A DNA stretch of 64,000 nucleotides, from the NCBI GenBank assembly GCA_034620365.1, contig JAQGEQ010000359.1, positions 37,097 through 101,096 on the forward strand. The letters run 5' to 3'. Of this stretch, positions 1,511-42,804 are shown piece after piece. Position 1 is the stretch's first letter. Each line of letters opens with the position of its first letter. The DNA comes from Pegea sp. RAD2-039 (lineage: Eukaryota > Chordata > Thaliacea > Salpida > Salpidae). The position numbers were made by a program, and so were the translations under genes. The notes below the pieces were generated by a model that worked only from the letters and a program-made list of their open reading frames with translations, had not been told where the DNA came from and did no database searches.

Positions 1511-1572
1511 AATTATAAATACAAATGTTATCAAGTTGAGATAGTTTTAATCAAATCGAAATATGTTCTCAC

Positions 1573-6928: not shown

Positions 6929-6941
6929 GGATTTAATAGAA

Positions 6942-8414: not shown

Positions 8415-9270
8415 ACAAGCGAAATCTTCCACAATAAATTTACTTGCATTAGTTACTTACTAACAATTGTAAATATATCAAAACTTTATACTTTATAAAA
8501 GTGCTAACTGTTGTAACTTGTATATTATAATTAAAAAATGTTTGACTAAAATCATAAGAACATTAAAAAATAAAACTAATATCCACTAATAGAGAAATAT
8601 TTTGTTGGTAATTTTTGATCCTTAAAAGTTAGAGGTTTAACGAAAGTTCTTTCAATTTATTTGTTTTATTCAATGAAGCATAAGCTTCAATCTATTGAAG
8701 CATAAGCAAAAAAAAGTAATTAACAAAAAATATTAAATTAAGTGAAAAAAGAAGCTGGCAGCATTATACATCACTTGTTAACAAAATTGTCCAAATGTTA
8801 TTTATTTCAAAGGATACTAATATTTTTAAATAAATAGATGACGAAAAAAAATTCAACAAAATTTTAACTTGTTTATGATTTTCAAATTAATGTAGTTTAA
8901 TAAAACTCAAACTAAAATAGGCGTTTTTATCTTTGGAAGTATTTTGATGTAAGATTAGTTTTAATTACTTATTTATGATTAACTGCTTATAGTTACTTTT
9001 GATTGAATTGAAAATTATAAAATTCTTCATGTGTAATTATAATAAATATTAATTTTAGATGAAAAAACCTCATAAATAGTTTAAAGAAACATTTTGGAAT
9101 GTAACTCTAGTAATTTAACTTTATAGAAGCTAAGATAGATCAAAACCAGGAATAAACAACATTTTCTAAATACATAAAAATTTACTGATACTAATAAACA
9201 CTTTTGAATGTAATGAAAGTTTTAGTTTGCTAAAAGAATATTGTGATTTCAAATTTTGTTACTCTTGGAA
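8415..9270. other. Ly6-like 3' flank and unit junction
   Basis: No gene seen. Contains AATAAA-like motifs (for example AAAAAATAAAACT near 8567) after the Ly6-like stop, and the junction between tandem units 1 and 2 at about 8815-8840. Confidence 0.6.
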
Positions 9271-9640
9271 TGGTTTGTATTGCCCGTACTTTTATTGTAT
9301 TCTATGATAACATAGAGGTTAGTGATTACATTATTCAAATATTGAAGTATGATAGAAACTAAAATGGTTTCGTTGCTAAAAATAAAGTTAAAAAAGAAAT
9401 GAATTTAAAAGAAAATGGAAGAAGTTTTAAAATGGTAAAAAATTCCATTACAAAACAAATTAAGGTAGACACAGAAGTCAATTAACAGTTGTTTGAAATA
9501 AAGAAATCAAGCGAAGAAGATGAAAAAGTGGAAAGAAAAGACAAGAAAAAAGAACTTACTGAAACATGGAGTATTGAAATTGAAGATTTTACAGAAATTG
9601 TGGAAGACAAAGCCGTCGACAACGATGATAAAAGTTTTTA
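9271..9640 (+). pseudogene. Unknown lysine/glutamate-rich relic, copy 2
   Basis: Homologue of the frame at 4594. It starts MVCIARTFIVFYDNIEV, reaches a stop after KYDRN (not present in copy 1), and continues in frame as NGFVAKNKVKKEMNLKENGR and EIEDFTEIVEDKAVDNDDK. Decayed in every copy; family not recognised. Confidence 0.45.
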
Positions 9641-12600
9641 AAAATAACCTAAATTTGTCTCAAATTTAATAAGTAATTAATCAATTTTCTTCGTTATAGT
9701 TTTTTATAAAAACATTTTATTCAATTTAGAATAAAAACTAGTGAAGTCACAGCAGCAAAACATGTAAAGATAATCATTTAATAGATTTATCACATATTTC
9801 ATAATTGTATTGAACAGAACAAATTAATTAATTAACTTTAGAGCACTTTAATGAAATTTTTTGTTTTTAAAATATCAGAAACTTTCTTTTAAGTAATTAT
9901 CTTAAAAATAAAAAATTGGATTTTTATGTAATTGGTTCATTATTTCATTATTATTGGTTCATTTAACGGCAAGAATTTATTTTTCAGCAAGTTTTTATCA
10001 ATGTCTTTAATTGAAAAAATTGTAAAGAAATTAATATTTAAAAACTATTTTGAATATTTGTTGAAAAAGAATTTATTTTGACGATTTCTTTCAAGATTCT
10101 TAAAAGTATTAAATTGCTTTAGTAGGAACCTTCGATCATTATTAATCTATGAATCTGAATGTCTTTGCTGTTTGATAAATCTAATTTATCATTTAAATTG
10201 AATATCTTACTTAATTATAATTTGTAATTTGATAATGACTTATGATATTACTTTGAAATTCTGAATTGTTCTGAATTAGCTCTCTAAAATGAAGATTAAA
10301 AAGATAGTTAAATATTTATTCTCTTTCATTTAAATAGTATTTTCCGAGTTACCGTTTTATGTCTATTTCTAAAAGTTTTAAAAATGTTTAAAAAATTTAG
10401 TTGTAAGAATGATGTTTAAAGATTTATTGTAAATGGTTTCATCTAATTGTATGGTACAAAATTTTGTTTATGAGTTGATAGTAAAGTTGCTAATATTTAT
10501 ATTATTTCTCAATATCGCCAAACATATCAAAACACAATTGAAAACAAACTTTACTTAAAACAGATTTTCACTGTTACCAGCATGTCATTAAAGGTTTCAA
10601 ACGAATAAAAATAAATGAATATAAATTCTTTTAACTTTAAAATACTCTTAAAGAAAAAGAACCAAACCAAAAAAAGTCTTGAGCTTTAATAACAAAAGGG
10701 ATTAATTCTATGCTGATGCAAAGCAAAGACTCGTTGACAATTGTTTAATGAAAATAATCTTGGTGTAGTTATATGGCATCATTTTGAAAAGAAAAATAAT
10801 TATTACTGAAGGTTTAGATGTAGCAAATGTATCAGAAGTTATAAGTTGTTACAAACTAGTATAAAAAGATTACACTAAATCATATTAGGTTGAAAAATTG
10901 TTGATGGATGTCGTGCTAATTACCCTCAAATATGAGAGATTTAATTGCTGTTGTTTATTTATTATAAGAAAGAAAGATTTATTCAGCTTGATGTTAAAGA
11001 AAAACATTTCATTTTGACATTTATGGTTGAAACCACGCATCTTATATATTTAAATAATTCTCTACAAGCAAAAATAATTTATTTAGTTATTTGGAGCAGT
11101 ATCTACTTTTATACAAACTTTGCAAGATATAAATTACTCAAAGTATCGGTTTGTAATTTGTCAAATGCTTTTTAGCATCTTAATGAACCACTTGAACCTT
11201 GTAAGTGAATTATATCTAGAAATTTTATTTTATGAATTTATTTATTCGAGCTTAATAAGTTCAAAATTTGTCAACAAAAAGTTAGTAATTCTAAAAGTTT
11301 ATATCCTTAACCTTTGAAGTTTTTAACCGAAAATAAGTCACGTATTATAGTTATACCAATTATATAAACTTATATATTATAGAAATATTAATATTCTTAA
11401 ATTGAATCAAAGTAAAAACTTGTCTCTGGAATGTTTTATTTTGTAAGTCTTTAATAACTTGTATGAACTGAACATTGAGTTTTAATTTAGTAGAAGGAAT
11501 TTCCCGAAATTTATGTTATATTTAATAAAAGTCGAATAATTTTAAAACACATTTTATAAATTCGTTTAACATTTTTTATTTGAAAATTGATGATTGATTA
11601 TCAATGATTCATTGTTCACAGATGAACAGGAATTATTCATGCACAAAATCAATCGTTAATACATTTGTGGTTACAATCGAAGTTTTTGTTCTTCATTGTT
11701 TTATAAGGATTAAAATCTCATTTCCTTCCAGACTAAAATACACAATTTAATATATTCTTTATTAATTATATATAGTTTTATGTCAGAATCACTCGCGTTG
11801 TTCAAGCAGAAGTTGAACTGTTATAATATTACCAACATTGCCATTTTTAAACTGAGAATTTTTCCTTTTTTTAATATTATTATAATTCTAATTTAAAACA
11901 GATTGTATAAACTCTTTTTAATGTTTTTTATTCGAAGTTTGATATTAATAGCATTTGTTAAACTTTCACAGATGAATAGGAATCATTCGTGCACAAAATC
12001 TATTGTTAATATGTTAAAATAGTTCAATTTAGTACAGAGATATCAGACTTCTAAGGTTACTTATTGATTGATGTTAGAAAGCTTACAAGCAATGCTACCC
12101 GTCTAAACTTCTATTTTTATAAAGTGATTTTTGGTATCAACATATAAAAAACTAATTAAAATTAATTGATTGAATAATTATTAATAAATAATCAACATTA
12201 TTGAATAAATAGTGAAATTTTGCATCATTGTTATTCATCGCGAATTTCTGGTTACAATCGAAGTTCTTGTTCTTCATCCTTTTCATAATGATTAAAGTAT
12301 CATTTCTTCCCAGACTAAGATATACAATTTACTATATTCTTTACATACTTGATAAAAACAAAATTCAAATATAGAATTTCGTTTGTAGAATTTAGAATAA
12401 CATTTTAACAATGAAAATTCAACACTTTCTTATATTTAAGATAACTATAAAGAAATTGTGTTGATTGGGAAAGCAAAAAATTGTAGAATGGAATATTTAT
12501 TTACTTAAAATATTTGAAGCATGAAACTTCCAGGAGTATTTAATAGTGTTTGTAAGATTTATCACAACCGTTAAAAACGTTTTTATGATCTTACATGAAA

Positions 12601-12862
12601 TAAGATCCAACAAAAGAAATTCTATTTTTTGTTCTATTTTACCTTTATTAGGAAACTCTTTTTTTAACTATTACAAAGCAGAATAATAAAAAATAAAAAA
12701 GATAATTTCACTATTAAAAGTAAGCATAGTGTGATCATTGTTGTAAAAAGAAAGTAGCTAAAAGTATTTCAATTTCTTTCGATTTTAGATAGTCTTATTG
12801 GTGGGACTTGATTTTAAACTTTATTTTGAAAGACTTCAACTTAAACATTTAAAAGATTTTGC
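9641..12862. other. AT-rich upstream region of Ly6-like copy 2
   Basis: Mostly non-coding. The part 10020-11270 is present here and inverted in the right arm (about 49100-50350) but deleted in unit 1. Two overlapping open frames at 10945-11317 (YKKERFIQLDVKEKHF and MQDINYSKYRFVICQ) are only partly kept in the right arm (49032-49229) and lack gene-like composition. Confidence 0.55.
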
Positions 12863-12876
12863 AGGATTTAACAGAA

Positions 12877-14728
12877 ATGAAGTCTATTGTATTAGCTTTA
12901 GTAACAGTTTTGATTTATGCTGTGAATACTGCAGGTGAAAATATTCGAATAATTTATTTTTAATAATATTTGAAAATTTATTTCTTCTTTACAATAAACG
13001 CAAAGTAGTATGATAAAGAGAACCTCTTACTAACATATATTCTCACAAATAGTATAATAATACTGATAATAGAAGTCTTTTAAATATTTATTAATACACA
13101 TTCTGAATATCTAATAACGACATCAAACTAAATATTCTTTAATTTAGATGGAATCAAATGTGTAGTGTATCGTGGTTTTATAGAAGATAAGACAGAAAAA
13201 TTAGTTCTACTTGAAAGTGATGAAGCTTACTGTCCTGAATACACATCTTGCTACTTTACAATATATAGATTTCTTTCTGGTAAGAACAAACAATTTAGTC
13301 TCAAAAATTTTAAAATAAACAAACTTTAATTCTAAATTTACTATTTGATAACTTTTTAAAAAGCGTTTTAAAAACTTACTATTCATTTCTAGAACTTAGT
13401 TTAGTGAGTAGAAGTTTGGTGATCACAAGTAATTTTTTTATCTCAATTGCAGCACCATACACAGCTTATGCAGCAAACTGTGTCAAGATAGACGATGATT
13501 TCGGCGATCCGTCCTTTTGTGAATTAGAAGACATAACAACTTGCTCACAAAGCATCTGTTCTGAAGATCTATGTAATAATATTTCAACAACTCAGCTACC
13601 AACAACTCAGGCACCAACAAATCAGTGTCCAAAAACTCAACTACCAACAACAACTCAGCTACCAACTACTCAGCCACCAACAACTCAGCCACCAACAACT
13701 CAGCCACCAACAACTCAGCCACCAACAACTCAGCCACCAACAGCTCAGCTACCAACAACTCAGCTACCAACATCTCAGCCAACAACTCAGCTACCAACAA
13801 CTCAGCCAGCAATAACTCAGTCACCAACAACTCAGCTACCAACAACTCAGCCACCAACAACTCAGCCAGCAATAACTCAGTCTCCAACAACTCAGCTACC
13901 AACAACTCAGCTACCAACAACTCAGCTACCAACAACTCAACCACCAACAACTCAGCTACCAACAACTCAGCTACCAACAACTCAGCTACCAACAGCTCAG
14001 TCTCAAACAACTCAGCTACCAACAACTCAGCTACCAACAACTCAGCCAGCAATAACTCAGTCACCAACAACTGTGGTTGAAACAACAGCTGAAACAACAA
14101 CTTATACTTCACCATCTTCAAGTATTACATTCAATCTAATTGTTTAAAGACAAGTTAATTTCATTCTAATCTGTTTTTAAGAATGTCCATCTCTTGGTAA
14201 AGATAGAACAGTTGACTTCAATTGTTCAAGATTTTATGATGATTCATCTAAATGTGGACGTCGCCCAGCATGGTCTTGTGATTATTTTAGTTGGAGAGTT
14301 AATATGTTGGAATTGTTTTTAAAAGAACTTGCAGACAAAATGTAAATTTACAAACTTTTTTTCAAATTTTAAACTTTTTTATTTTATATAACAAAATTTT
14401 TAGCCCTGAAGATAGTGATTTTAAACTTACTAAATGTGATAATGATGATGGCATCAGTTGTGAATCATCAGAAAAATGTTGTTACATCTCCTACAGTGGA
14501 TGTCAAATTTGTCATTGCATCGACCATGATTACATTGGTAATTGACGAGTATTATTTTTTGAAATAGTTTCTATTTATTATCAATTGTTTACTAAAAGTG
14601 TATTAATGATTTTAGATCACACATATGTACAAAATATTTGGAAGCGAGATCAGCAATTATGGAGGACGCTAAATAAGTTATACATCGAAGTTTATCCTGG
14701 AGAATCTGACTATTTTAATACTTGTTAA
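12877..14728 (+). CDS. Secreted Ly6/uPAR-like protein with TTQ stalk, copy 2
   Basis: Same six-exon plan as copy 1: 12877-12934, 13148-13279, 13393-14147, 14182-14341, 14404-14537 and 14616-14728. The signal peptide is MKSIVLALVTVLIYAVNTAG. Exon 2 differs strongly from copy 1 (KCVVYRGFIEDKTEKLVLLE) but keeps its cysteines; exon 3 keeps CSQSICSEDLCNN. The stalk has about 32 TTQxP pentapeptides. Exon 3 ends in its own stop at 14147. Exons 4-6 are open from a phase-1 entry and end YFNTC. All splice borders are GT/AG. The exon sizes outside exon 3 equal those of copy 1 exactly (58, 132, 160, 134, 113 nt), so this copy looks functional. Threonine-rich stalks of this kind are usually O-glycosylated; that is family knowledge, not seen here. 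Confidence 0.72.
13585..14070 (+). repeat. 15-bp coding repeat, about 32 units
   Basis: Tandem 15-bp units coding TTQLP/TTQPP with variants TTQPAI TQSP and TAQLP. The opposite strand and the +2 frame are also open across it because 15 is a multiple of 3; those frames are not genes. Confidence 0.92.
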
Positions 14729-15889
14729 ACAAGCGAAATCTTCCACAATATATTTCTTACATTAGTTACTTACTAACAATTGTAAATATATCAAAACTTT
14801 ATACTTTGTAAAAGTGCTAACTGTTGTAACTTGTATATTATAATTGAAAAATATTTGACTAAATTCAGAAGAACATTAAAAAATAAAACTAAGATCCACT
14901 AATAGAGAAATATTTTGTTGGTAATTTTTGTTCCGTAAAAGTTAGAGGTTTTACGAAAGTTCTTTCAATTTATTTGTTTTATTCATCGAAGCATAAGCTT
15001 CAATCTATTGAAGCATAAGCAAAAAAAAGTAATTAACAAAAAATATTAAATTAAGTGAAAAAATAAACTGGCAGCATTATACATCATTTGTTAACAAAAT
15101 TGTCTAAATGTTATTTATTTCAAACGATGTTAAATTTGTATATATTGAAAGATTTGTGAATTTGGTGTGAAGCAACTGAACTAGTTCTGAATAAATAATT
15201 TTTTATATGGATGCATCTGTATTACTTTTTCAAATTAATTAAAATTCGATATTAGTAGTAAGCAAAACTGATTTAACAATTTTTTATACGAATATTATTA
15301 CATGAAGATTTTAAGTCAGATTTTTAGTTATTAGTAGCATCTTGTGAATAAGAATTGTTTTGGAAGACTTCTTGTTTAGACTTTCTTAAAACAGTTTATA
15401 GATTACTCAACAGTAATTTAGTTATAGAAAATCATTTGGGCAAAACATTATTTGCTCATTTGACAAAGTTGAAATTTGACTCTTAATATCTGAAACATTG
15501 AATTAAATCCTGCAAAAGGCTTCAAAACTAAATAAAGGTAAATAGTTTCAGCTTTTTTATCTATTAGCTTGTTTGAATATAAACACAAACTATTTGAAAT
15601 CCTGTCTATAGAAAAAATTATTAAGATCGAACAAATAGTTAAATAATTAGACAATTAAGTTCTTCAATGTCCAAGATGCACAGAAGACATGTAAATGATT
15701 ACATCAGAGTTTCATTCTGATTTTAGTGTTCGTTATTCTAAAATCAAAAATGTAAAAATACAAATAATATTCAATAAAATAAAAACTTTCTAAATATTCA
15801 CCTCTAGTAAATATATAGTATACTTTAAATTGCATCTTTCAAGTAAGACAAAGTACAAGTCTAAAACAAATATCGACGTAAACCGCGCT
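14729..15889. other. 3' flank of Ly6-like copy 2
   Basis: No gene seen. A segment of it (about 14880-15510) recurs at 22660-23326 in the spacer and inverted at about 43910-44600. The minus-strand open frame at 15448-15654 is broken in those other copies. Confidence 0.6.
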
Positions 15890-16390
15890 TAGACACCATC
15901 GCCATGTGCATTCCAGAGAAAATTGTAGAATTCCTAACTTTAATGGATATATTAAAGTCATCAACACTACTACCTCTCTGTCTTGCTTCAAAATGAAGGT
16001 TAAGATGTACAATAGCGCACTGGAAGCTCTTGGAGTGAAGACTTATGACAGCAAAGACTGCTTCGAAAAAAGAAGCGTCAAGCGCATGTAAAGCACCAAA
16101 AACAATCTAGCAATTCTGAGATTTTGCGCAAAGCTAGAAAAGTATTTGTAGAGCTGCAAGAAAATGTGTCAATGAGATTTGGCTGTAAAAAATCGAAGCT
16201 GTAGCAGCAATGGGTGACACCAAATCCGTTTATGATGGTGTTAGATGTGCAATTGAACCCACAAAACGTCTAACAGCCCCCCCTCCCCCGCAATCTGCCT
16301 CAGGATAAATTTTGTACAAAAATAAGAAACCAATAGGGAAGCACATGGAACATTTTAAACTCGTTTACTCACTAAAAACACCGTGATGAA
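15890..16390 (+). pseudogene. LINE ORF2 relic (linker before RT)
   Basis: Reading with frame changes gives SALEALGVKTYDSKDCFEK, then IEAVAAMGDTKSVYDGV, TKRLTAP and KHMEHFKLVY. This follows the region between endonuclease and reverse transcriptase in LINEs of the type with the segment GKAPGPDG (LG..KRK..DWFDE, then EIQ.AAD..D.KAFYDA, then APLL and W.EHF). Several stops interrupt it. Its first part is mirrored at 43340-43540; the rest is absent from the right arm. Confidence 0.55.
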
Positions 16391-23327: not shown

Positions 23328-26300
23328 GCAAAATATTAACGCGGCAAAGTTAAGTGGTAGCTTTGAAAACGTGTCAAAAATGCTTTAGTCGCCCAAGTGA
23401 TATCGTCAAACATTTGCTTAAGGACTTATTAATGTTTATATGTACGTAGCTAAGACTTCTAAATTTTACCTATTTGAATAAGGTAAGTGTCTATCAGGAG
23501 TAATCTCCTATTTTTTTCAATCAAACAAAATATTAACGCGGCAAAGTTAAATGGTAGCTTTACAAACGTGTCAAAAATGCTTTAGTCGCCCAATGATATC
23601 GCCAAACATATGATTAAAGACTTATTAATGTTTATATGTACGTAGCTAAGACTTCTAAATTTTACCTATTTGAATAAGGTAAGTGTCTATCAGGAGTAAT
23701 CTCCTATTTTTTTCAATCAAACAAAATATTAACGCGGCAAAGTTAAATGGTAGCTTTACAAACGTGTCAAAAATGCTTTAGTCGCCCAATGATATCGCCA
23801 AACATATGATTAAAGACTTATTAATGTTTATATGTACGTAGCTAAGACTTCTAAATTTTACCTATTTGAATAAGGTAAGTGTCTATCAGGAGTAATCTCC
23901 TATTTTTTTCAATCAAACAAAATATTAAACGCGGCAAAGTTAAATGGTAGCTTTACAAACGTGTCAAAAATGCTTTAATCGCCCAATGATATCGCCAAAC
24001 ATTTGATTAAAGACTTATTAATGTTTATATGTACGTAGCTAAGACTTCTAAATTTTACCTATTTGAATAAGGTAAGTGTCTATCAGGAGTAATCTCCTAT
24101 TTTTTTCAATCAAACAAAATATTAACGCGGCAAAGTTAAGTGGTAGCTTTGAAAACGTGTCAAAAATGCTTTAGTCGCCCAATGATATCGCCAAACGTAT
24201 GATTAAAGACTTATTAATGTTTATATGTACGTAGCTAAGACTTCTAAATTTTACCTATTTGAATAAGGTAAGTGTCTATCAGGAGTAATCTCCTATTTTT
24301 TTCAATCAAACAAAAAATTAACGCGGCAAAGTTAAGTGGTAGCTTTGAAAACGTGTCAAAAATGCTTTAGTCGCCCAAGTGATATCGCCAAACGTATGAT
24401 TAAAGACTTATTAATGTTTATATGTACGTAGCTAAGACTTCTAAATTTTACCTATTTGAATAAGGTAAGTGTCTATCAGGAGTAATCTCCTATTTTTTTC
24501 AATCAAACAAAATATTAACGCGGCAAAGTTAAATGGTAGCTTTACAAACGTGTCAAAAATGCTTTAGTCGCCCAATGATATCGCCAAACATATGATTAAA
24601 GACTTATTAATGTTTATATGTACGTAGCTAAGACTTCTAAATTTTACCTATTTGAATAAGGTAAGTGTCTATCAGGAGTAATCTCCTATTTTTTTCAATC
24701 AAACAAAATATTAAACGCGGCAAAGTTAAATGGTAGCTTTACAAACGTGTCAAAAATGCTTTAGTCGCCCAATGATATCGCCAAACATTTGATTAAAGAC
24801 TTATTAATGTTTATATGTACGTAGCTAAGACTTCTAAATTTTACCTATTTGAATAAGGTAAGTGTCTATCAGGAGTAATCTCCTATTTTTTTCAATCAAA
24901 CAAAATATTAAACGCGGCAAAGTTAAATGGTAGCTTTACAAACGTGTCAAAAATGCTTTAGTCGCCCAATGATATCGCCAAACATATGATTAAAGACTTA
25001 TTAATGTTTATATGTACGTAGCTAAGACTTCTAAATTTTACCTATTTGAATAAGGTAAGTGTCTATCAGGAGTAATCTCCTATTTTTTTCAATCAAACAA
25101 AATATTAACGCGGCAAAGTTAAGTGGTAGCTTTGAAAACGTGTCAAAAATGCTTTAGTCGCCCAATGATATCGCCAAACATTTGATTAAAGACTTATTAA
25201 TGTTTATATGTACGTAGCTAAGACTTCTAAATTTTACCTATTTGAATAAGGTAAGTGTCTATCAGGAGTAATCTCCTATTTTTTTCAATCAAACAAAATA
25301 TTAACGCGGCAAAGTTAAGTGGTAGCTTTGAAAACGTGTCAAAAATGCTTTAGTCGCCCAAGTGATATCGCCAAACATTTGATTAAAGACTTATTAATGT
25401 TTATATGTACGTAGCTAAGACTTCTAAATTTTACCTATTTGAATAAGGTAAGTGTCTATCAGGAGTAATCTCCTATTTTTTTCAATCAAACAAAATATTA
25501 AACGCGGCAAAGTTAAATGGTAGCTTTGAAAACGTGTCAAAAATGCGTCGCCCAAGTGATATCGCCAAACATTTGATTAAAGACTTATTATGTTTATATG
25601 TACGTAGCTAAGATTTCTAAATTTTACCTATTTGAATAAGGTAGTGTCTATCAGGAGTAATCTCTATTTTTTTCAATCAAACAAAATATTAAACGCGGCA
25701 AAGTTAAATGGTAGCTTTACAAACGTGTCAAAAATGCTTAGTCGCCCAATGATATCGCCAAACATTTGATTAAAGACTTATTAATGTTTATATGTACGTA
25801 GCTAAGACTTCTAAATTTTACCTATTTGAATAAGGTAAGTGTCTATCAGGAGTAATCTCCTATTTTTTTCAATCAAACAAAATATTAACGCGGCAAAATT
25901 AAATGGTAGCTTTACAAACGTGTCAAAAATGCTTTATTCGCCCAAGTGATATCGCCAAAAATTTGATTAAAGACTTATTAATGTTTATATTTACGTAGCT
26001 AAGACTACTAAATTTTACCTATTTGAATAAGGTAAGTGTCTATCAGGAGTAATCTCCTATTTTTTTCAATCAATCATAAAAATCTATGCGCAAAACAAAA
26101 ATCGTAGCTTTGAAAACGTGTCAAAAATGCTTTAGTCGCCCAAGTGATATCGTCAAACATTTGCTTAAAGACTTATTAATGTTTATATGAACGTAGCTAA
26201 GACTTCTATATTTTACCTATTTGAATAAGGTAAGTGTCTATCAGGAGTAATCTCCTATTTTTTTCAATCAAACAAAATATTAAACGCGGCAAAGTTAAAT

Positions 26301-26470
26301 GGTAGCTTTGAAAACGTGTCAAAAATGCTTTAGTCGCCCAAGTGATATCGCCAAACATTTGATTAAAGACTTATTAATGTTTATATTTACGTAGCTAAGA
26401 CTACTAAATTTTACCTATTTGAATAAGGTAAGTGTCTATCAGGAGTAATCTCCTATTTCTTACAATCAAA
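23328..26470 (+). repeat. 197-bp tandem array of SL RNA genes, about 16 units
   Basis: Units of 193-198 bp, most nearly identical. The last base of the 16-nt leader lies at 23482, 23678, 23874, 24071, 24267, 24464, 24660, 24857, 25054, 25250, 25447, 25640, 25834, 26031, 26229 and 26427. Two variants alternate in the region after the T-run (AGTGGTAGCTTTGAAAAC and AAATGGTAGCTTTACAAAC). Units toward the right edge are more degenerate; unit 12 has lost a base in the donor (GGTAGTG). Not CRISPR: no short repeat/spacer alternation. Confidence 0.9.
23467..23512 (+). ncRNA. Spliced-leader RNA (first of about 16 copies)
   Basis: The proposed leader is TACCTATTTGAATAAG (23467-23482), followed at once by the donor GTAAGTG. 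Bases TTACCT before and AGGTAA across the donor can pair, forming the stem that holds the splice site in SL RNAs. Then comes a perfect hairpin, AGGAGTAATCTCCT, and a run of seven T. A third possible stem, CAAAG with CTTTG, lies about 45 nt downstream. Ciona's leader, as I recall it, is ATTCTATTTGAATAAG and its SL RNA is about 46 nt; a 46-nt RNA from 23467 would end just in the start of the T-run. No clear RATTTTTGR Sm site is present; ATTTTTTTC may stand in. The exact 5' end is inferred. Confidence 0.8.
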
Positions 26471-27640
26471 CATAAAATTCTATAAAAAAACTATTAAATC
26501 ATTATAGTAGATGATAATCATTTGAGTCTTTTTTAATTGTCAACCGGCTTAAAATACTGGAAACTCCGTGAAAGTGACCCGAATCACATTTATCTATGTA
26601 ATAGTAAAAAAATACTCATATAAGAAAGAAACTAGCAATTGTTTAAATTAGATTACCGACTTGTTCATGATTTCAAAATAGGAACTGATGAAAAGCTATC
26701 TTGCAATAATACTTCTTAGGTTACTTGTCAAGAAGTTGCACCATGCTAGCAAGTTTTGGATTGAAATCACTGACCAATGATAACTAGCATCTTTTACTTT
26801 CGAATTTGATATTAGGTCATCGGCAAGTTGCCGATATCAAAATAGTCGATTTGTCTTGAAATTCTGTTAAAGTCTATGAAACTTGCTTGTTTTTTTTAAT
26901 ATCTTTCGGTTTAGTGTTTGTCCGGACGAAACTCAAAATTTAAAATTCAACTTTTTTCATGGGTTTGATTTATTTTAAACAACGAGAACATTTTTTTATT
27001 GACAACAATTCTAAATTAAGTTTTTATTATTTGGTACTTATCAGTTTCCATAAATTTTTTAAGTTTTCATTTTTAAGTTTTAATGTTGTCAAAATTTATA
27101 GTTTACAAAAAACAATTCCCATAAAAATTAGGATAAACTAAACAAATAAGTTGTCGGCTCAATAATTTATTATAAACAGTTTAGGTTTGAAATATTCCTT
27201 GTAACTCTACTTCATCACTTCAAAACTTATGTAAAAATTCTAAAATTAGAATATTTTTTTACTATTTTCTTACAAGAAGATAGTTTTTGTTTGTCTCCGA
27301 GATATTGTAAATGGAGATAGTTAAAAGTAATTTACTAATATCTATGTAATGTTTTTTGTTTTAGTCGATTTTTTAAATATCAAGTTTGAACAAATCGATG
27401 AAATAAACTTTATATTTACAATTGCTTTTTACTGAATGAAATTTAAATATGATTTAGCAAAAAGTTTTGTTTTCAGAACTAATAAACAACTTTGATAAAA
27501 GCTCTTAATGAAGAATAAGCAACAACATCCAAATGACAATTTTATCTTTATTTTTCATGAAATCTCATGTGTTTCAAGATGATATGAAACTTCTATTACA
27601 GTTTCTACTTCAATTCGATCGAATTAAATCCGTTTCTAAT
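26471..27640. other. Non-coding, AT-rich
   Basis: No gene seen. About 26650-26725 is a diverged inverted match of 29130-29215 (shared GATGAAAAGCTATCTTG). At 26819-26835 there is a perfect short inverted repeat, ATCGGCAA-G-TTGCCGAT. The open frame at 26959-27141 has no gene-like features. Confidence 0.5.
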
Positions 27641-27649
27641 TTATAATTT

Positions 27650-28084
27650 GAGTAAAAACTAAATGGTAACATCCTTGGCAATTTCCGATATAAACTTGGC
27701 TAATTGAACGGATATAGATTTGCTGATGTCGGATAATTGGTTTTGATTAGAATTAGATGGGGTAGCTGTTGTGTTCATGCTTCTACATTAAATGCTGAAC
27801 CGTTTAAATCCCATTTGCCTCATTTGGTTGTTATCAAATATATCGTACATTTTTTTGCTCACATCATTACAGGTGAGATGAAACTAGAAGCGGCATTTAA
27901 AACATTCCATTGCCGGATCTTCACCAGAGCAAATTTGTATGCAGGATTGACAATTGCCATTGTAAGCTTGTTTTGATGAAGTTGATTTGTCAGGATTTTT
28001 CTTTAAATTTGAACGTAAGGTCTTTCTAGTATTATTTGGGTCTACCATAGTTTTTGGAAGGATTTTTAGGGTCACCAACCACAA
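27650..28084 (-). pseudogene. PHD-finger/coiled-coil ORF relic
   Basis: The minus frame from 28084 reads KKNPDKSTSSKQAYNGNCQS, then the pattern CQSCIQIC..ECFKCRF and, after a stop, FHLTCNDVSKKMYDIF. The Cys/His spacing fits a PHD finger. About 30 codons on, it continues as NNQLSDISKSI-like sequence homologous to the relic at 22251-22523. Stops and at least one frame change show decay. The arrangement is consistent with ORF1 of a non-LTR retroelement; a host PHD protein is possible. Confidence 0.45.
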
Positions 28085-30907
28085 TATATAATATATTTAT
28101 AATATACAAATAACTTCCTAGAAATAAATTTATCACAACTTATAAGCACTTATTCAAATAGAATATAACCTATAACCTGAAACTTATTCAAATTGAATAG
28201 ATATTAGAGAACCTAAATTTATATTTTATGATCATGTGTGAAAATGATCTAATAGTTTCTTCATCCTGTTATTGTTTGCAAAAAGTAATACTTCCTATCT
28301 TTTTAGTCATAACTTTTAGTATACACAAAACAAATCCCTTGTAAGATAGCACATTTGATCTTTTATTTCTAATAATTAAAAATCTGTTCTAAGTAAAACT
28401 TTTCTCACTAATCTTCTCTAAGTAATTTTTATATAAGTAACTAAAATAAACAGGTTTTCCTAGATCTTCTAGGTCATTTAAACGGCAATCAGAGCACAAC
28501 TCATTTTATATGAAAAAGATTAGAAAATACTGAAATCTGAGAACTTTAATCCAAAATAGTTGGAACTTATTACCTAAATTTATAACAACTATTTAAAACT
28601 TAAACCGCATATTCAAATTGCTGAAATATTATTTTTTATTTAGTTTAATCCTACTTTTTGTATTCCTTTTTGAGAACCGTAATTTTGTAAGCATTATTTG
28701 CAAAATTGTTTCCAGAAAACATGATGGCTTTTCTATTTATTTGTTAGGAACAAGATTTCTCTATATAAGTTTTATTATTTATAAAATTATGTTCTGTGGA
28801 AGACCTATTAGACAAGTAGTTTTTCTTTCTGACTGTGAACTTAGAAAATATTCTTTTTAAAAAGTTAGAAACAGTTTCATTGAAAATAATTACAATTGTT
28901 TTACATTAGAAGTATTTTTATTAATATTAGTCACAAGAAATCTTTTAAATTTTGTAATTTAAAAAGTAATATGCAAACACGTAAAACTAAAACAATTTAG
29001 AAATGTTGTCAAAGAAAAACATTTTTTCAAACAGTTAAATATATGATACTTATAAGGGAGAATCAATTTTATAAATAAAACTTTGTCCGGACGAACTTTA
29101 GATCAAAAAACATTTTTAAATAGACGATGTTTCATTCCAAGATAGCTTTTCATCTGTTTCCCAAGACAGTCCAAAATTTGAAACCGGCAATTTGTCGGTG
29201 ATCTATTTATTAAGTTCTAAAATAAGCGAATTAATGAAAATGTGTTGGAAAGTAGACTATGAGTTGTTTTTTTAAATGTTATTCCAGTACTTCCAACGGC
29301 AAGTTAGCAATTGATTAACTTTAACAGAAAATTAAAACTTTAATTTTGAGCTTAAAGTAATTTTAGCTATAATTTGCTTATAGTTTGTTCTCACTCTAGT
29401 TAGAGATGAAATTATCAAACTGCAAAAATTTAAGAAGTTTTGAAATTGGTTAATACATTTATAATATAGTTAAAATGCAAATAGCAAAAGTCCAACAAAG
29501 ACTTTGATTTTAATTTAGTAGCATTTATAAACATTTTATTTAGTTATGTATCAAATTAAAAAAAAATTTTTCGTAGTTTTTAATCATCGAAATTTATAAT
29601 TTTCACATCCTTTTCTACATCTATAATTAATGTGTTTTACAATCAGTACTTTTAGCTGTACTATCAAAATAATTTTTGTAATCATCTGAAAGTTTCTTTT
29701 ATCAAAAAGCTTTATAGGACTAATGATATTAACAAAAATAATTGAAAAATTTTTCTAAATTTCTCATCACAGTTAATATGTCTTTCAAATATTTCATTCT
29801 TGAAAACTAATAAAAATATTATCAAGCTTCTATTGTTGTTTTTCTGGAACGTTCTGATTTCAAGATTAATTTAACGGTGAGCATCATTGATGACATCTAT
29901 ATAAAATACATGGACATAAGAAAACAATCGCATCTAAGTCTTATCCTTTTTTCAAAAAAACCTTATCAAGCTTCTATTGTTGTTGTGAAACTTTTTATTA
30001 AGCAATCATAACAATCTGGAATGTTCTGATTGTGCTTTACAGTGAGCATCATTGATAACGTCTCAAAAATACATGGATATCTAAGGGCAATCGAATCTAA
30101 GTCTGATCCCATCAGACACAAGTACAGATCATTTTAAACGACTTAGGTTTCTCCAGACTTTAAAAACTTTACATTTGCTTAACGCTATCCACTACTGTTA
30201 CTCAATGAAATGAAAATGAACTTTATTAAATCACATGCAATATGTAAAATTGTGATTTAAATAATATGATACACGCCACGAGTAGTAAAAATAAGTTTGC
30301 ATAATCAGCGTTAAAGTATTTTTATCTTTATTTAACTTGTTGTAATTTATAAAATACTATAAAAAAATTAAATGACTATTGTGTAATTAAACTAACCTAT
30401 AAGATCTAGACAAAAACAAATAAGACTTGAAATATTCGACTATAGCTGCTTGATGGAAAAATTGATTGAAGCACAAAGTTTTCGTAATTTTATTTTAATT
30501 CCAACAAAATAATTAAAAACAAATACAAGAGGCGAAATTTAAGCTTAGATTATAAAACATAAACTTTTCTGGTAGTAAGAACAATTAGCAAACGCACAAA
30601 CTTATCTCGCAGACATCAAACATTTCTTTATCAGAAGTAAATTTTTGTTTTATGATTTTAAAAGCTATTTATTTAAGTTTACGTCCGACCAACAATATCT
30701 AATTTCATTGGTTCTTGTTCATATATTTTTGACGTTTAGCCTTTAAATTTTGAAGAGTTAAAAGAAAACACTTTAAAATGAACTTTTAAGTTTAAATCAA
30801 AAAAGACATTCAAGAAAAATATGAAAGTTTTCTTATGTAAGGTTTGGTGCTTTACTGAAACTTTTTAAAATTATTATTTTTGACTTCTTTTTCGCATTAT
30901 TGTTTAA
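28085..30907. other. Non-coding, AT-rich
   Basis: No convincing gene; the open frame at 28618-28860 is hydrophobic, AT-driven and unsupported. It contains the inverted partner of 26650-26725 and the duplicated segment described at 29815-30110. Confidence 0.55.
29815..30110 (+). repeat. Two-copy direct repeat of about 145 bp
   Basis: 29815-29950 and 29961-30115 share TATCAAGCTTCTATTGTTGT, a GTGAGCATCATTGAT block and a CGAATCTAAGTCT-like end, in the same order. Meaning unknown. Confidence 0.7.
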
Positions 30908-32275
30908 TTAATTAGTAGGCATCATCATTTTTAAAGAAGATAACAGTTTTTTGATTATTTCTGTGGCGGTATTCAAAATAGATATCATTCTTTGACAGTT
31001 TGAAAGATCTTCAAAAATTAGTTTTATATCGAGTAATACGCCCAATTGGCTCTCATAGTTACTAGGAAACATTTTATCTTCGTTGTTTTCATTATTCTTT
31101 TTGTTACTCATAGAAACTTTAAAATTCTCTGAAACGTCAGATGAAATATTGTTTGGCTGATCAGAAAAATTTGAACTTGTATAACCTTCTTCCGACAGGT
31201 AGAGATCAGTTTCGAGGCAGTCACAATCGTCAGATATTAAATTGCAAGACTGATTAGAAAAATCGGAACTTGTATAATCTTCTAGGTACAGATCAGTTTG
31301 AAGGAAGATAGATTCTTTTCTTATCTTTGATAACTTTACATGACAAGCTAATGACAAGCTAAACAAAACAGGTACAAGTAAATTGTTAAAATAAGTTTCA
31401 GCAAATTCTGGATTTCGTTTAAATTCTATTAAAGTGCTTATTAGGCTGTTTGAGGCAAATGTTTGCCCCAAAAAATACTCTTGTCCTTCTATCAATGACT
31501 GAATGAATAACCTCAAATCGCATAAGCTTACAAAAGCAATCACTCTGATTATTTCTTGGTAATACTCAAGATAAGCCGAATCTATATGCAACAGATTGTT
31601 ACATGATTGCACAAGTGCGTAACAAAAATCATCTAAAAATGATAAATATTCTTGAAACTTGAGAAAATTTGTATTTGTTGATTGTATAACTTTTTTAGTT
31701 GTACCAGATAGCAAGGAAAATCTTTTGATCAAATCATTAAGTTTTGTGGTTTGTTTGTAGATATTAGTTTCGGTTATATTGCCAAATCCATCCAAAATCT
31801 GCACTAGAAAAAATAGAAGTGTAGACGTTTTGTATTTCATTATGGCTTTAGTTGGTTTGAATTCTTCAGCAATCAACAGACAATGTCTTAATAATTCTAA
31901 AGCAACAAAATGGCTTTCTACAGATTTGTCCTTTTTGAAAGAAAACTTTGTTCCAATTTGAAAGAATATTCTCAGTATAATAAGATCACGTGAGTTACTG
32001 CTGGCTTTAAAATCTTTCAATTTGTAAACTTTTACTAATCCAGGTTTTTCGTATTTCCAGTAAACAAATCCTGCTGACAAAATATTATCTTTCACAAGTG
32101 AATCAGAAAAACAATCAAATCCATCAAAATCTTTATCTTGGTACTTAAGGTGAAGTTCTATAAGCTCATTTCCAGCCGGTCTCGTAAAAATGTAATCAAA
32201 TAGACTACCTTGCAATATGAAAGACGTTTTTCCTCCAATATCTAAAACTTTCACACATTCAGAATATTCATTCAT
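30908..32275 (-). CDS. Orphan 455-residue intronless protein
   Basis: A single open frame of 455 codons, very long for such AT-rich DNA. I do not recognise the family. The N-terminal half is mixed (VKVLDIGGKTSFILQGSLFD), the middle is helix-like and hydrophobic with Leu/Phe-rich stretches (VPVLFSLSLACHVKLSKIRK), residues about 330-390 hold an acidic, Ser-rich repeat (TDLYLEDYTSSDFS and TDLYLSEEGYTSSNFS), and the C-terminus is again helical. No signal peptide or clear membrane segment. A truncated paralogue lies on the same strand at 35280-36242, so this is a small family. The ATG at 32275 is the first in the frame. A possible acceptor (ATTTGTAG) lies about 30 nt upstream. The lack of introns may point to a retrocopy or a mobile-element gene. 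Confidence 0.6.
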   Translation of the reverse strand: MNEYSECVKVLDIGGKTSFILQGSLFDYIFTRPAGNELIELHLKYQDKDFDGFDCFSDSLVKDNILSAGFVYWKYEKPGLVKVYKLKDFKASSNSRDLIILRIFFQIGTKFSFKKDKSVESHFVALELLRHCLLIAEEFKPTKAIMKYKTSTLLFFLVQILDGFGNITETNIYKQTTKLNDLIKRFSLLSGTTKKVIQSTNTNFLKFQEYLSFLDDFCYALVQSCNNLLHIDSAYLEYYQEIIRVIAFVSLCDLRLFIQSLIEGQEYFLGQTFASNSLISTLIEFKRNPEFAETYFNNLLVPVLFSLSLACHVKLSKIRKESIFLQTDLYLEDYTSSDFSNQSCNLISDDCDCLETDLYLSEEGYTSSNFSDQPNNISSDVSENFKVSMSNKKNNENNEDKMFPSNYESQLGVLLDIKLIFEDLSNCQRMISILNTATEIIKKLLSSLKMMMPTN

Positions 32276-35200
32276 TTCAAATTTGTTAATTTTTGTAGCA
32301 AGTTAATCTACAAATTCAGGAGCTGCTAAAATTAAGGCTGTAGTTGAATAATATATTAGACAAACGTAGCATCATTCAGTACATTTACTAAATTAAAAAT
32401 GTTCTGACTATATTTTACCTTACAGCTTGCAGCAGGCAATCAAGATTTAAATCTTACTAAGAAGTAGTAGTATCTTCATTAACTTAAATTCTAAATCAAA
32501 CATATGAATTCACATCAAATAGTTAAAACATATTCAGTACTAAACTAGCAAACAAACAATAAAGTAAAAAATATAACTTTCCATGTAAGAAAAGTCTTCA
32601 ACAAATATGCCCTCATATTCGAGTTGTTCATTTATTTATAGTCTTGCAAATGTAAACCAAATCAACCGAAATAAAATCATTGAAAACAGACTTGTTACTT
32701 ATTCAATCAGTTTGTTTAAACTGTAATCATTTCAATATTATATGTTCAGTTTAAGAACTGATAAAGAGACAGTTTTATTATTAATAATTTTGTAAAATCA
32801 TATAAGGTGAATTCTTTGCTTTCTCTGTTTATATAAATCGATATTTTGCTGAAATTACATGAGGCCTTATGACTATGCTTATATTTTGCACAAAGCTAAA
32901 AATAATTTCCTTAAACGTTTCCTTCAGCTTTTTGAATAAATGTCTCTTTACTTTCCGCTAGACGCTTAGAGCAGGATACGACTTTAACAGCTTTTTAAAT
33001 ACATGTCTTTCTGCTAGAAGCAATAAAAACAAACATACTGGTGATCACGAAATACAAAATTTGCATATTAGAAACATCTTTTAATGGTCTTTTATTGAGC
33101 TTATGAAAGATTTGAAAGATTAAGAAATCTGTTTAATAACTCTTCATTTTATTTTGCTTCTTAAAATAAATGTAGTTTCAAATCAGTTTGCTCTAAATAT
33201 AAATGAAATTTCTTTAGACTAACAATAAAAAATAAATGATAAAGGTTTAATAATTTTAGTCAAAATGCTTTTTGTAATATCACAAGACTTACAAGTTTAG
33301 ATAAAAGTATTAGACATTTATTTATGACTGAAGTTGTTTTCTTAAAGTATTTAGACAATAATGAATATATTGCTGTAGGGGTTTCAAGTCTTGTGTTGCT
33401 AATAGTGAAATAAAGATAAGTGTATTTGTCTCGTGGAGGCAGGTGGTAGTTAGATTTACTCATTATTAGGCTCACTTCAAGTCTGGAGAGTCTTACAACC
33501 TCTGTAAAGCAAGATGTTATTACCTGCAACGCCGACTCATTATATTTCACAAAGGCGTCATCGCCGAGACGATGTTTTGTTAACTAAGGTAGCAAGTTTA
33601 TAATCTAGTTTTAATTATTTAACTTTTAAATTGATGGCTAATGTTGCAGTAATTGTTTCATGAAACTTTGTGAATATAAACTCCTGGCAGCCAACTTATA
33701 GATTAAAACAATTTGGTTGAATAAATTAAAGTTATAAAATGAGTAAAGCTTGAGTTTAATTTCCAAATCTTACCAAAACTATCTTTTTGTTGTTGTAGTA
33801 TTTCTAATTACTACATGAAAGTTATTTTTATGTTTTTATCCTCAATTAATATTTATATGAAAGCTTGAAAACTGAATTTGATGTTCCTAAACTACGAAAA
33901 CTAAAATAGCAAATAAATCAATCCCAAACCAACCTTGTTTTAGACTAAAGTATAGAAATTTTTTTTTTATAAACAAATTGAGTATTAAAAAGTAGCTTTC
34001 AACTTGATTTCGTTTTCCTTAAATGATTTAGAATTTGTGAAAAAAAACTTAAACTATCAAGAAATCAAAAACAACTTTTGCTATATTAAACAAACCAAAA
34101 TTTTTAATTCAAAGAATTAGGTAAACGAAAATTTTAAATTTCACCTTAAAAATTAATAGCATCAATATTATCAAAACCTATGATTATCAAAACAATCTTT
34201 TTTATAACACCCAATCGAAACTATTTACTATTTTTATTTAGTTCCACAAATATACATTTATCTATGTCCTTATGGCCTCTCTGAATTGAAACTACCCATA
34301 ATGATATCAAAAGTCAAATATCTCTGTGTGACGTTAACCAAAAGTTATGTAATTTGGACTTTTATATATTTTTTATAATGTTTTGTGGATATATTTTAAA
34401 TATGTTACAACTGTAAATAAATCGAATTAAAATTCAAGTTAAGTTGCAAATATTCTAATTCGAAAGCTTTCATGCTATTGGCTGATCACAAAAGAAATAT
34501 TTTCAGTCTTATATGTTAGCTAGAGGTTGTCAAAACCTGTCACAATACTAAGGAATTAAAAAAATTTACTGACCTCATAACTTAACTGGTCCATTAACAA
34601 TGATCATAACAAAATTTAACAGATTTAAATCAACTTTGATGGTAACTACAAAATACGTTGCACGGCTCTAAAGAGCAATTCAAACTTCTAAAGGAAATGT
34701 TATAGAAGAACTCTTTAATATCCGTTAAACGTTTTTCTAAAAACCATTTGACAACTAAGATGTAATCACTTTCGCTTTAATTATTTCTATTATAAAAAGT
34801 TTGCAACTAGCTTCCTCATAAACTTCCTTAATGATTATTATTACAGGCGCGTTATAAATTCATTACTCCACAGCTTGTTTAACCAATCTCACAAGAGCGT
34901 CTTTTGAAAAATTTTCTTGAGAATCAGTTATGGTGATTTCTAATTCATAACGGACCTCACCAAAATATTTTTCATATCAGAGTACTAAAGGTAAAGGACA
35001 AAGTGTTTTTGGGTTTGCTAGGGTACTGAGTGCAAATCACTAAGTGTTTTTGGGAATTTCATAATATTATCATTTGCAATTTTCTTTTTGTGAATGTTGA
35101 ACAAATTCTTCAAATAAAAACTACTGTTATACAACTTTTGTAAGATATAATTTATTGGCCGTCTTAATGATTATTTTTCCAAGTTTTTGGCTTTCAATCA

Positions 35201-35279: not shown

Positions 35280-36242
35280 TTAAATTTTTAAGGTGATAAA
35301 AACTTCTACGATAACGTTATAATTATTCAGCGTTATAGTTTTGCAGGCATAACTAATTTTAAACGAAGAATGCAACTTTATAATTATTTTTGTGGCTTTA
35401 GTCAAAATGTGTTTCATCTTTTGACAATCTAAAACACTATCAAAAATTACATTTATAGTAAATAATTCGTCGTACAAGTTGTCATATCTACTAACAAACA
35501 TTTCAGCTTTCTTGTTTTCTTTATTTTTTATATTACTCAAAAAATATTTCATTTTCTCTGAAAATTCAGATTCAATTTTGCTTAGTTAATTAGCTTAAAA
35601 ATTGAAATTTGTATAAACTTCTTGACACAGGTACGTATTAGTTTGGAGGCGTATAGATTGCTTTCTTATTTTAGAAAACTTCAAATGGTAAGCTAACGAT
35701 ATCAACAAATTAAAACTAAACAAAACAGCTGAAATTGATTTGTTTAAAAAATCATTAGCGAACCTTGGATTTTGTTTGGCTCCTTGTAAGTTTATTTGAA
35801 GGCTATATAAAGCAAATATTTGCCCAAAAACATATAAGTGTCCTGCTATTGAAGATTTAATGAAGAACATCAAACTGCATAAGCATACAAATGCATTTAC
35901 TCTCAATATGTCTCGGTTATACTCTAAGCCATTAGAATTGTAATCAAATAGATCTTCAGTTGACTCAAGTGAGGAATGAAAGACATCCAAAAATGATAAA
36001 TATTTTTGAAACTTGTGATTATTGGTGTTTGTTCATAGTTTAACTTCTTTAGTTCTACCAGATAGCAAAGACAATCTGGTGATCAAATCATTAAGTATTT
36101 TGGTTTGTTTGGAAAGTTTAGTTTCGTACATATTGCCGAATACATCCAAGATCTGTACTATAAAAATTGAAAACGCGGATAATTTGTATTTCATTATGGT
36201 TTTAGTTGGTAAAAGATGATGTGTAAAATTGTATATTTGCAT
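35280..36242 (-). pseudogene. Truncated paralogue of the orphan gene
   Basis: Three successive minus frames match the orphan protein in order: IMKYKLSAFSIFIVQILDVF (36242-36033), LRVNAFVCLCSLMFFIKSSI (35990-35595) and INVIFDSVLDCQKMKHILTK (35552-35280), against IMKYKTSTLLFFLVQILDGF and so on in the intact copy. Stops and frame changes separate them, and the first about 145 residues are missing. The break lies at a 23-bp minisatellite and a fragment of the PROPPIN gene. Confidence 0.85.
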
Positions 36243-36575
36243 AAACTAAAATTGTACATTCGAATAAAATAAGTTTGTACATTTAAATAAAATAAAATTG
36301 TGTATTTGAATAAAAGAAAATTGTACATTTGAATAAAACAAATTTGTACATTTGAATAAAAGAAAATTTGTACATTTGAATAAAACAAATTTGTACATTT
36401 GAATAAAATAAAATTTGTACATTTGAATAAAAGAAAATTTTGTATTCGAATAAAATAAATATGTACATTTGAATAAAATAAATTTGTACATTTGAATAAA
36501 ATAAAATTGTACATTTGAATAAAATAAATTTGTACATTCGAATAAAATAAAATTTGTACATTTGAATAAAATAAG
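36243..36575. repeat. 23-bp minisatellite, about 14 units
   Basis: Imperfect tandem units of about 22-24 bp (TTGTACATTTGAATAAAATA type) between the truncated orphan paralogue and the PROPPIN fragment. The overlapping open frames here are by-products of the repeat. Confidence 0.9.
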
Positions 36576-36645
36576 ATTGAGAGGAATCATACTTGTATTC
36601 ACCATTACAAGATAACCATCTGATTCTGTACTAACTACAATCTAC
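36576..36645 (-). pseudogene. Fragment of the PROPPIN gene
   Basis: About 70 bp nearly identical to 41738-41810 in the PROPPIN gene, same orientation. It codes remains of VVGTESDGYLVMVNTNMDPL (residues about 95-114). It ends where the minisatellite starts. Confidence 0.8.
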
Positions 36646-40980: not shown

Positions 40981-42084
40981 TTAATATTCGCCAACGACAT
41001 CAACAGAATCAATTTGCGCATTCCGTAAATTAATTTTATAAAATATTTTCTGCTGATTCTTTTTAACCAGCTCCATAACAACGTATTCTGTTTCCTTAAA
41101 AAGATGAACAGCAGTTACATCAGCTTCAGTATAAAACCACTTAGATACAGGAAGTTGACTAATATAATCAGCAAATGGTATGAAAGTTGATAAAAGTCTA
41201 CTCATAGTTTCAACAATCATAGATTTTTCGGCATCCTGTTCGCAAAACTTTGGTAGCTTGAATAAATTAACAAGACCATCAGAATAAACAGCTGCTACTA
41301 TTTCACAATCAGAACTAATAGCAAGTGCAGTAATCGTTCCTCCAACTAAAGAACTCCTAAACTCATGAAAGAGTTTTCCTGTTGAAGCAAAAAATACTCG
41401 AATAACAGTTCCACGTTCAGAAGCAGTAGCAATCATATCACTGTTTGAATCACCACAAATAGCCACCACTTTATGTTTATGGGCTTTAAGTACCATACGA
41501 ATTTTCATATTTTTTAAATCAAATACTTCTACATGCCCACAGTCACAATGATACCCATAAGTCACTAATATTTTCTGTTTTTCTAGAAAGCAAATAGTTC
41601 CACTTTTATCATGCTTTTGACTCAGATATTTCAAGGATTCATTCTTTGATCTCTCATACATTCTAAAATTATCTTCAGTAATCAATGTAATGAGAGTATC
41701 AGTTGCTGTTACTTTAATATATGGAAGATAATCATAAAGATTGAGAGGATCCATATTTGTATTCACCATTACAAGATAACCATCTGATTCTGTACCAACT
41801 ACAATCAACATGGACTTTTTTATGTCCGAATTTTCTCTATGACTCAGCAGCATTTTTGTAGCACACCATTTAGTGAGAGACTTAATCTGTTCTTCATCCT
41901 TCAAATTAGATTTTTCCTTCATATATAGATCAGTAACTGACTGAAGATTGATTATTTGTACTTTGTCGAAATTCATTGGAGATATCATCATATCCACTCT
42001 ATTTAAATCTTTTAATGTTTCCAAGGTAGCAACATACTTCTTGTTTTGTGACAAGAATTGAGAACTTTCTTTAACTAGAGACAT
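40981..42084 (-). CDS. Intronless PROPPIN (WIPI/Atg18-like) beta-propeller protein
   Basis: The 367-codon frame carries the PROPPIN signature HKHKVVAICGDSNSDMIATA, ASERGTVIRVFFASTGKLFH, EFRSS, then ISSDCEIVAAVYSDGLVNLF. PROPPINs are seven-bladed propellers that bind PI3P and PI(3,5)P2 on autophagic and endosomal membranes through two sites flanking an (F/L)RRG motif. Here that motif is FRSS (residues 242-245), so the second arginine and glycine are lost and lipid binding may be weak. WIPI genes normally have introns; this one has none, which suggests a retrocopy kept open. The length is close to WIPI3/WIPI4 (about 340-360). A TTTTTAG acceptor lies 28 nt before the ATG at 42084, as expected for SL trans-splicing. 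A 70-bp piece of the gene is duplicated at 36576. Which WIPI class it derives from is uncertain. Confidence 0.72.
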   Translation of the reverse strand: MSLVKESSQFLSQNKKYVATLETLKDLNRVDMMISPMNFDKVQIINLQSVTDLYMKEKSNLKDEEQIKSLTKWCATKMLLSHRENSDIKKSMLIVVGTESDGYLVMVNTNMDPLNLYDYLPYIKVTATDTLITLITEDNFRMYERSKNESLKYLSQKHDKSGTICFLEKQKILVTYGYHCDCGHVEVFDLKNMKIRMVLKAHKHKVVAICGDSNSDMIATASERGTVIRVFFASTGKLFHEFRSSLVGGTITALAISSDCEIVAAVYSDGLVNLFKLPKFCEQDAEKSMIVETMSRLLSTFIPFADYISQLPVSKWFYTEADVTAVHLFKETEYVVMELVKKNQQKIFYKINLRNAQIDSVDVVGEY

Positions 42085-42804
42085 TATTAACTTGAATCAA
42101 ATTTGTAAACCTAAAAAGTATTTAAAAAGTTATTTGACAAACAATTTTAATTTAATATTTAAATATATATAATATATAAGATTTTATTTGAAGTAAATTC
42201 AAAAAATCTACAAATTTAAGTATTATAAGATTGCAGAGTAAAATATATATTTAAAAATAGTTAATTTAGAAAAATTGAAAATTAATAAAATTCACAATAC
42301 TTAAATTATTCAACAAAAATATCAGCTTAAATTTTGATGATAAATTTATAGGATAAATATCCATAAAAACTACATTTGATTCAATAAAATATTTCTATTT
42401 TAGTTACAAAAATTATAAGTTTATTTTTTACAATTACAAAAATAAAAAAAATGTAGAACAATTTTAACAAAAATATACTTTGTCAAATAAATATATACTA
42501 AAGAATAGTTTGATAAAAAATAAAATCTACACAAACGATAAAAAAGTTTGTATAAAAGTTTAAAATTACTAAACTAAAGAAAATTAAGACGAAAAAAACA
42601 GATTACAAAACTTTTATTAATAATGAAACTAGAAATATATGACAAAATTGTTTTCAATTTAATAATATCACAATAAGTATTAATAAAACAATATTATTGA
42701 TACTTTTATATCTACAATTAAAAACAAATCTTGTACTTTGAAACATAACATTTTTTCAATGCATAGTTTTCCTTAAGAACAACTTTAGTAATAAATAATA
42801 TTAA
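42085..42804. other. Non-coding, AT-rich
   Basis: Single-copy sequence between the PROPPIN gene and the right arm; no features seen apart from the putative acceptor at 42111-42112 (minus strand). Confidence 0.6.

Follow-up and report, generated by a model that had tools for sequence, protein, structure and literature searches.

Does a well-preserved tandem array of spliced-leader (SL) RNA-type genes encode the leader that its genome uses? The question is raised by the array at 23329-26479 of the window, i.e., the 64,000-nucleotide stretch of DNA analyzed here, which an earlier sequence-only reading had taken to define the SL of the species. We consider it likely, on the evidence of the genomic DNA, that this is a tunicate-type SL RNA array with a variant leader, and that a second class of arrays on other contigs, encoding ATTCTATTTGAATAAG, supplies the leader of retroposed transcripts, the window's class being rarely or not at all used there.

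Anatomy of the array

TRF recovers 16.0 copies of 197 bp (96% matches, score 5693), and a covariance model based on 23 units likewise detects 16 units in the window, bearing out the 16 units of about 197 bp initially described. The array and the parts of its first unit, together with one damaged unit, are as follows:

23329..26479, + strand: tandem array of 16 SL RNA-type units of ~197 bp, variant leader class (TRF and covariance model)
23423..23442, + strand: first unit, conserved upstream stretch GACTTATTAATGTTTATATG of presumed role
23467..23482, + strand: first unit, variant leader TACCTATTTGAATAAG with putative 5' end (16-nt register of the Ciona SL)
23483..23488, + strand: first unit, splice donor GTAAGT
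23496..23509, + strand: first unit, 5-bp hairpin AGGAG-TAAT-CTCCT
23511..23517, + strand: first unit, T-run, a candidate Sm-like site or 3' end signal
25622..25679, + strand: damaged unit with donor GTAGTG

The hairpin and T-run had both been reported correctly. Within the conserved upstream stretch of the first unit, a TATA-like TATATG begins 31 bp upstream of the A of ACCTATTTG. The leader that had been described is preserved throughout, TTTTACCTATTTGAATAAG being present in 16/16 units; the accompanying perfect GTAAGT donor holds in 15 of the 16, the exception being the unit with its donor at 25641, where the loss of one base gives GTAGTG. The array thus has the tandem organization and the canonical donor directly 3' of the leader that characterize Ciona-type SL RNA genes. 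It lacks the full 16-nt leader ATTCTATTTGAATAAG of that type: 13 of the 16 bases agree and the first three are TAC. These last 13 bases equal, as had been stated, those of the Ciona SL printed in the accessible part of PMC7986045, which also gives a 264-bp Ciona unit, in keeping with the length of about 260 bp first given, longer than that of the window.

The donor had further been said to pair back onto the leader. Such pairing (UACC with GGUA) is indeed predicted for the window's leader; it is absent from the best folds of the TATC leader and of the 16-nt Ciona-type leader, in the latter of which AUUC pairs with GAAU within the leader. Eight forms were folded; in each, between 15 and 74 of 200 shuffles do equally well, and the folds are consequently weak evidence. 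In the hairpin, 98.3% of cells pair over 23 units, with wobble changes and no double change, a figure not above that of shuffles; pair counts reveal no compensatory changes among these units. The Ciona Sm motif AGCUUUGG does not lie within 25 nt of the donor, and a search of the 60 nt next to the donor, with one substitution allowed, found it in 0/153 units, both classes counted. In the window no Rfam family reaches its gathering score; the sole weak match at a lax threshold, uxuA (593 bases of the array, minus strand, E 0.86), was rejected.

Host and surroundings of the array

To our knowledge, the presence of a GH6 gene among animals marks tunicates. The genome (105.7 Mb in 387 contigs searched; the window lies on contig C159, and contig and region labels, C and L, are our own) contains one GH6 match, PF01341 at C14:74494-74718, in a gene apparently with introns. 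The best named match of its protein, with frames joined by eye, is from Clavelina lepadiformis (51% over 95% of the query), ranking behind a match at 68%. On account of this gene we take the host to be a tunicate, the most likely assignment and the one already made from the array. According to the accessible part of PMC7464555, the common ancestor of tunicates had GH6 genes.

A large inverted duplication surrounds the middle of the window (1-16074 versus 43343-56159, pieces 89-97% alike) and contains tandem repeats of 113 and 15 bp as well as PTTQ-rich reading frames. At 40981-42096 on the minus strand the window encodes a very divergent WIPI/ATG18-like protein, whose three best relatives (63-91%) are on short contigs and whose matches to named animals are 32-42% over part of its length.

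Sister arrays and two leader classes

At least 153 SL units were found in the regions fetched, 99 of them in arrays of the window's class:

C159, window's class: 16 units in the window and 3 nearby
C173, window's class: 27 units
C358, window's class: 24 units
C87, window's class: 14 units
C272, window's class: 13 and 2 units
C4, second class: 39 units, 33 with exact ATTCTATTTGAATAAG
C11, second class: 8 and 2 units
C216, second class: 3 units
C70, second class: 1 unit
C194, second class: 1 unit, without the hairpin

In the window's class, TAC or TAT stands ahead of CTATTTGAATAAG. The second class, mainly that on C4, has the leader ATTCTATTTGAATAAG, with some changed copies, which is identical to the Ciona SL in the accessible part of PMC7986045. 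The exact 16-nt leader followed by GTAAGT (ATTCTATTTGAATAAGGTAAGT) occurs at 42 places in the genome as against 0 for the control, namely 33 on C4, 6 on C11, and one each on C70, C194, and C216. Across the 152 units having 16 bases, the leader forms are TACC (53), ATTC (43), TATC (36), and others (20). As judged from the sequences, the two leader classes are not clean clades: the 16-nt class requires 4 changes on the tree (67 of 149 units), and its constitution as a single clade was neither rejected nor demonstrated (p=0.104).

Flank pieces adjoining the arrays on C358, C173, C87, and C272 are 89-98% alike. To the right of the window array, the flank at 26480-35200 is 97-98% identical on C358 (L012, L020), and shorter flank pieces lie next to the C173, C87, and C272 arrays, which suggests a joint spread of arrays and flanks or, in part, allelism. 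We also observed a 23-bp minisatellite, TAAAATTGTACATTTGAATAAAA, at 36224-36579 of the window, which resembles the leader and elsewhere abuts SL units at L017:9761-9835 (minus strand), L019:1177-1251, and L018:4035-4108; these units have kept the donor, hairpin, and downstream part and have lost the promoter and leader.

Sequence constraint and the candidate promoter

A comparison of the consensus of 95 variant units (leaving out a chance match at window position 62092 on the minus strand) with that of 38 C4 units revealed that the 45 bases from the donor onward are identical and that the leader differs at 3 of 16 positions. The upstream region with the TATA-like box is 14-17% different between the classes, and the spacers on either side 23% and 36% different; against the C11 group, the spacers differ from the variant consensus by 14% and 28%. 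Compared among themselves, the 95 variant units show 1.5% difference in the core (-9 to +41) and 12% in the spacer, and 4 of 219 circular shifts give so low a value. The corresponding figures for the 16-nt class (51 units) are 2.0% and 9.5%, with 17 of 219 shifts as low, which makes the test weak for that class. Because the intron body is identical, the variant arrays would be either constrained or recently homogenized. The reading of the window array as tandem SL RNA-type genes stands, as its leader, donor, hairpin, T-run, conserved core, and diverged spacer together indicate.

The U1, U2, U5, and U6 genes are present above family cut-offs and share an upstream element, CCCACAAAYANNAAACTT (AAGCTT in most U2 genes), accompanied by a TATA box, which follows the start of the element by 27-29 bp for U1, U5, and U2 (U2 by eye) and by 32-34 bp for U6. 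An ungapped PWM, with the U2 comparison made by eye, did not find CCCACAAAYANNAAACTT upstream of SL units of either class, and so the TATA-like box is the one element on which the reading of transcription rests. With the PWM for the element common to U1, U5, and U6, the median best scores of 12 of the 13 SL array groups do not stand out from the main body of scores given by 3000 window pieces. C70, with its one unit, reaches the top 4%, though its hit, at -20, is misplaced for such an element. A gapped likeness to the snRNA element with U6-like spacing, noticed by eye, was set aside, the ungapped PWM having given nothing, and we make no claim regarding polymerase II or III.

These patterns of divergence bear on an alternative that we regard as plausible but do not favor, namely that the window array is a selfish or decaying, untranscribed satellite derived from SL RNA genes, with its likeness to them due to recent amplification and segmental duplication. 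The similarity of the flanks beside the C358, C173, C87, and C272 arrays (89-98%) is what such a history would leave, as are the cut-off SL units joined to the 23-bp minisatellite at three other places and the near absence of retroposed leaders of the window's class (see below). However, simple drift would not yield variant spacers that differ by 12% around a core that differs by 1.5%; gene conversion limited to the core could do so, but would be a special circumstance.

Dispersed leaders as a probable record of trans-splicing

Beyond the SL genes, the leader is scattered over the genome. CTATTTGAATAAG occurs 490 times, SL genes included; its reversed control gives 10, and base composition predicts 22. 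In the counts of leaders that follow, places with a G directly after the leader are omitted because the SL genes fall there; on this count there are 169 copies of ATTCTATTTGAATAAG, with 0 for the control and about 0.9 expected. When 28 of these places were read, 23 were found to run into one LINE family. In a first sample of 20 dispersed regions among the matches listed (all 17 on C1 and C3, and 3 chosen on C4 and C6), ATT precedes the first 13-mer in 17 and the LINE-like family lies downstream in 18; in a second sample, comprising regions chosen for other reasons, 12 of 20 match the family, giving 30 of 40 overall (BLAST E <= 1e-5; the shortest match over 36 bases). One copy of the family encodes pieces of a reverse transcriptase domain. 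The window itself contains one such copy:

27664..28198, - strand: 5' portion of a LINE-like copy in which two relict leaders are nested; elsewhere the family carries the 16-nt leader
28149..28164, - strand: inner of the two relict leaders, ATTCTATTTGAATAAG, with the exact sequence of the Ciona SL and a junction to TGCTTATAAG
28183..28198, - strand: outer of the two relict leaders, ATTCAATTTGAATAAG, with one change and a junction to TTTCAGGTTATAGG

Where the leader opens a LINE-like copy, the DNA 5' of it is unrelated, and the leader is joined to the same LINE UTR at several points. At two of these the other copies keep an AG, reading TTTCTAG (2) or TTCCTAG (1) before GAAGTG, and TTTCAG (6), TTCAG (1), or TTTTTAG (1) before GTTATAGG. 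No AG was found at the TGCTTATAAG junction in the DNA of the copies read, TGCTTATAAG outside leaders being preceded by GATAT (2 cases), nor in the copies read at the TGACAG junction (L058, L080), where other copies read GGTGACAG. Several LINE-like copies have two or three leaders, some of them nested, as if they had been spliced, copied, and inserted more than once. Another repeat family (L087, L095, L096), with ATGGATCAACTATTGAAACCA or ATGGATACACTGTTGAAACCA downstream, has the leader in its 5' part. We read the dispersed leader copies as retroposed trans-spliced transcripts.

Which leader was used?

The dispersed record appears to hold the 16-nt leader, and that of the window rarely if at all. 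Genome-wide, the window's TACC leader has 0 dispersed 16-nt copies with no G after. Any CCTATTTGAATAAG with no G after occurs once (control 2, about 2.5 expected), which is no more than chance; this lone place reads CACC and matches the LINE family over 42 bases. The TATC leader with no G after occurs at 9 places, all of which were read and 5 of which are LINE-like. Five LINE copies start with TATCTATTTGAATAAG and one with CACCTATTTGAATAAG, making some use of variant leaders possible. Given 169 dispersed ATTCTATTTGAATAAG copies versus 0-1 of the window's type, the window array does not encode the leader of the retroposed copies. The proposal that it defines the species' SL is accordingly not supported, for the retroposed transcripts carry ATTCTATTTGAATAAG, which the arrays on C4, C11, and others encode.

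Might the window array nevertheless be a working second SL, whose RNA is expressed and gives (T)ACCTATTTGAATAAG to a share of host mRNAs and not to the LINE? The consensus of its intron core is identical to that of the 16-nt class with little change among units, the donors are intact in all but one of the 16 window units, arrays of its class account for 99 of the 153 units found, and one LINE-like copy starts with CACCTATTTGAATAAG. Nonetheless, we think this unlikely: 169 dispersed 16-nt leaders stand against 1 of the CCTATTTG form, which is within chance, variant leaders should be common if use tracked gene number, and Ciona and Oikopleura dioica have one SL each in the accessible part of PMC7986045. 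A stronger version, in which the window's class would be a second, separately kept SL with arrays and host mRNAs of its own, excluded from LINE transcripts, as a chordate counterpart of a two-leader system, strikes us as improbable.

Least credible is the notion that the 16-nt leaders dispersed in the genome are no products of trans-splicing and belong to the LINE family as its native 5' end, as might be supposed from the same leader opening most copies read and from the TGCTT and TGACAG junctions without AG in other copies, since the leader is attached at several different positions in one UTR (at two of these, other copies retain an AG), is present two or three times in some copies and also in the second repeat family (L087, L095, L096), and equals both the donor-bearing leader encoded in the genome and the Ciona SL.

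Proposed scenario

Under the favored reading, that of a tunicate-type array with a variant leader, each unit would be transcribed from ~31 bp downstream of the TATA-like box to give a short RNA; using its GTAAGT donor, the spliceosome would attach its leader to mRNAs at AG acceptors. The leader put on transcripts would stem from the 16-nt class, encoded on other contigs; LINE transcripts thus trans-spliced would have been reverse transcribed and inserted with the leader at their 5' end, in some cases repeatedly. The window's class would be an amplified paralog that spread together with its flanks, its leader seeing rare or no use on LINE transcripts.

Comparison with known SL systems

The window locus separates the SL RNA genes that a genome holds from those it uses, a large, well-kept array having a leader that is hardly ever present on retroposed copies; that the locus consists of SL RNA genes does not guarantee mRNAs starting with TACCTATTTGAATAAG, which may be missing. 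The LINE copies offer a DNA record of trans-splicing, giving the exact 16 leader bases and some acceptor sites without recourse to RNA, and this chordate retroelement seems to have repeatedly acquired a host leader. Expression of both classes would mean more than one SL in a tunicate, as against the single SL each reported for Ciona and Oikopleura dioica in the accessible part of PMC7986045. A literature search, with subscription papers mostly outside its reach, returned no report of the window array, two tunicate SL classes, or leader-bearing LINE copies in tunicates.

Among the closest known counterparts is Ciona intestinalis, whose SL RNA genes have a 16-nt SL, a 46-nt RNA, and a 264-bp tandem unit (PMC7986045, PMC6836712, accessible parts). 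The array shares with it the last 13 leader bases, tandem arrangement, and a GT donor directly after the leader, and another array class of the genome encodes the identical 16-nt leader. It differs in that the first three leader bases of the window's class are TAC and not ATT, in its unit of ~197 bp, and in having no AGCUUUGG near the donor; unlike the Ciona genes, which are on chromosome 8 and two unassembled contigs, there are several arrays here with two leader classes. More than one leader class per genome recalls nematode SL1/SL2 (accessible part of PMC7986045), but we see no evidence of class-specific targets here. Finally, dinoflagellate retroposed genes carry relict spliced leaders (accessible part of PMC6050394, citing Slamovits and Keeling, 2008), and the leaders described above likewise open retroposed transcripts at the 5' end, at times more than one together; unlike in dinoflagellates, the host is a probable tunicate, and the carrier, in the places read, is mainly one LINE family and not host genes.
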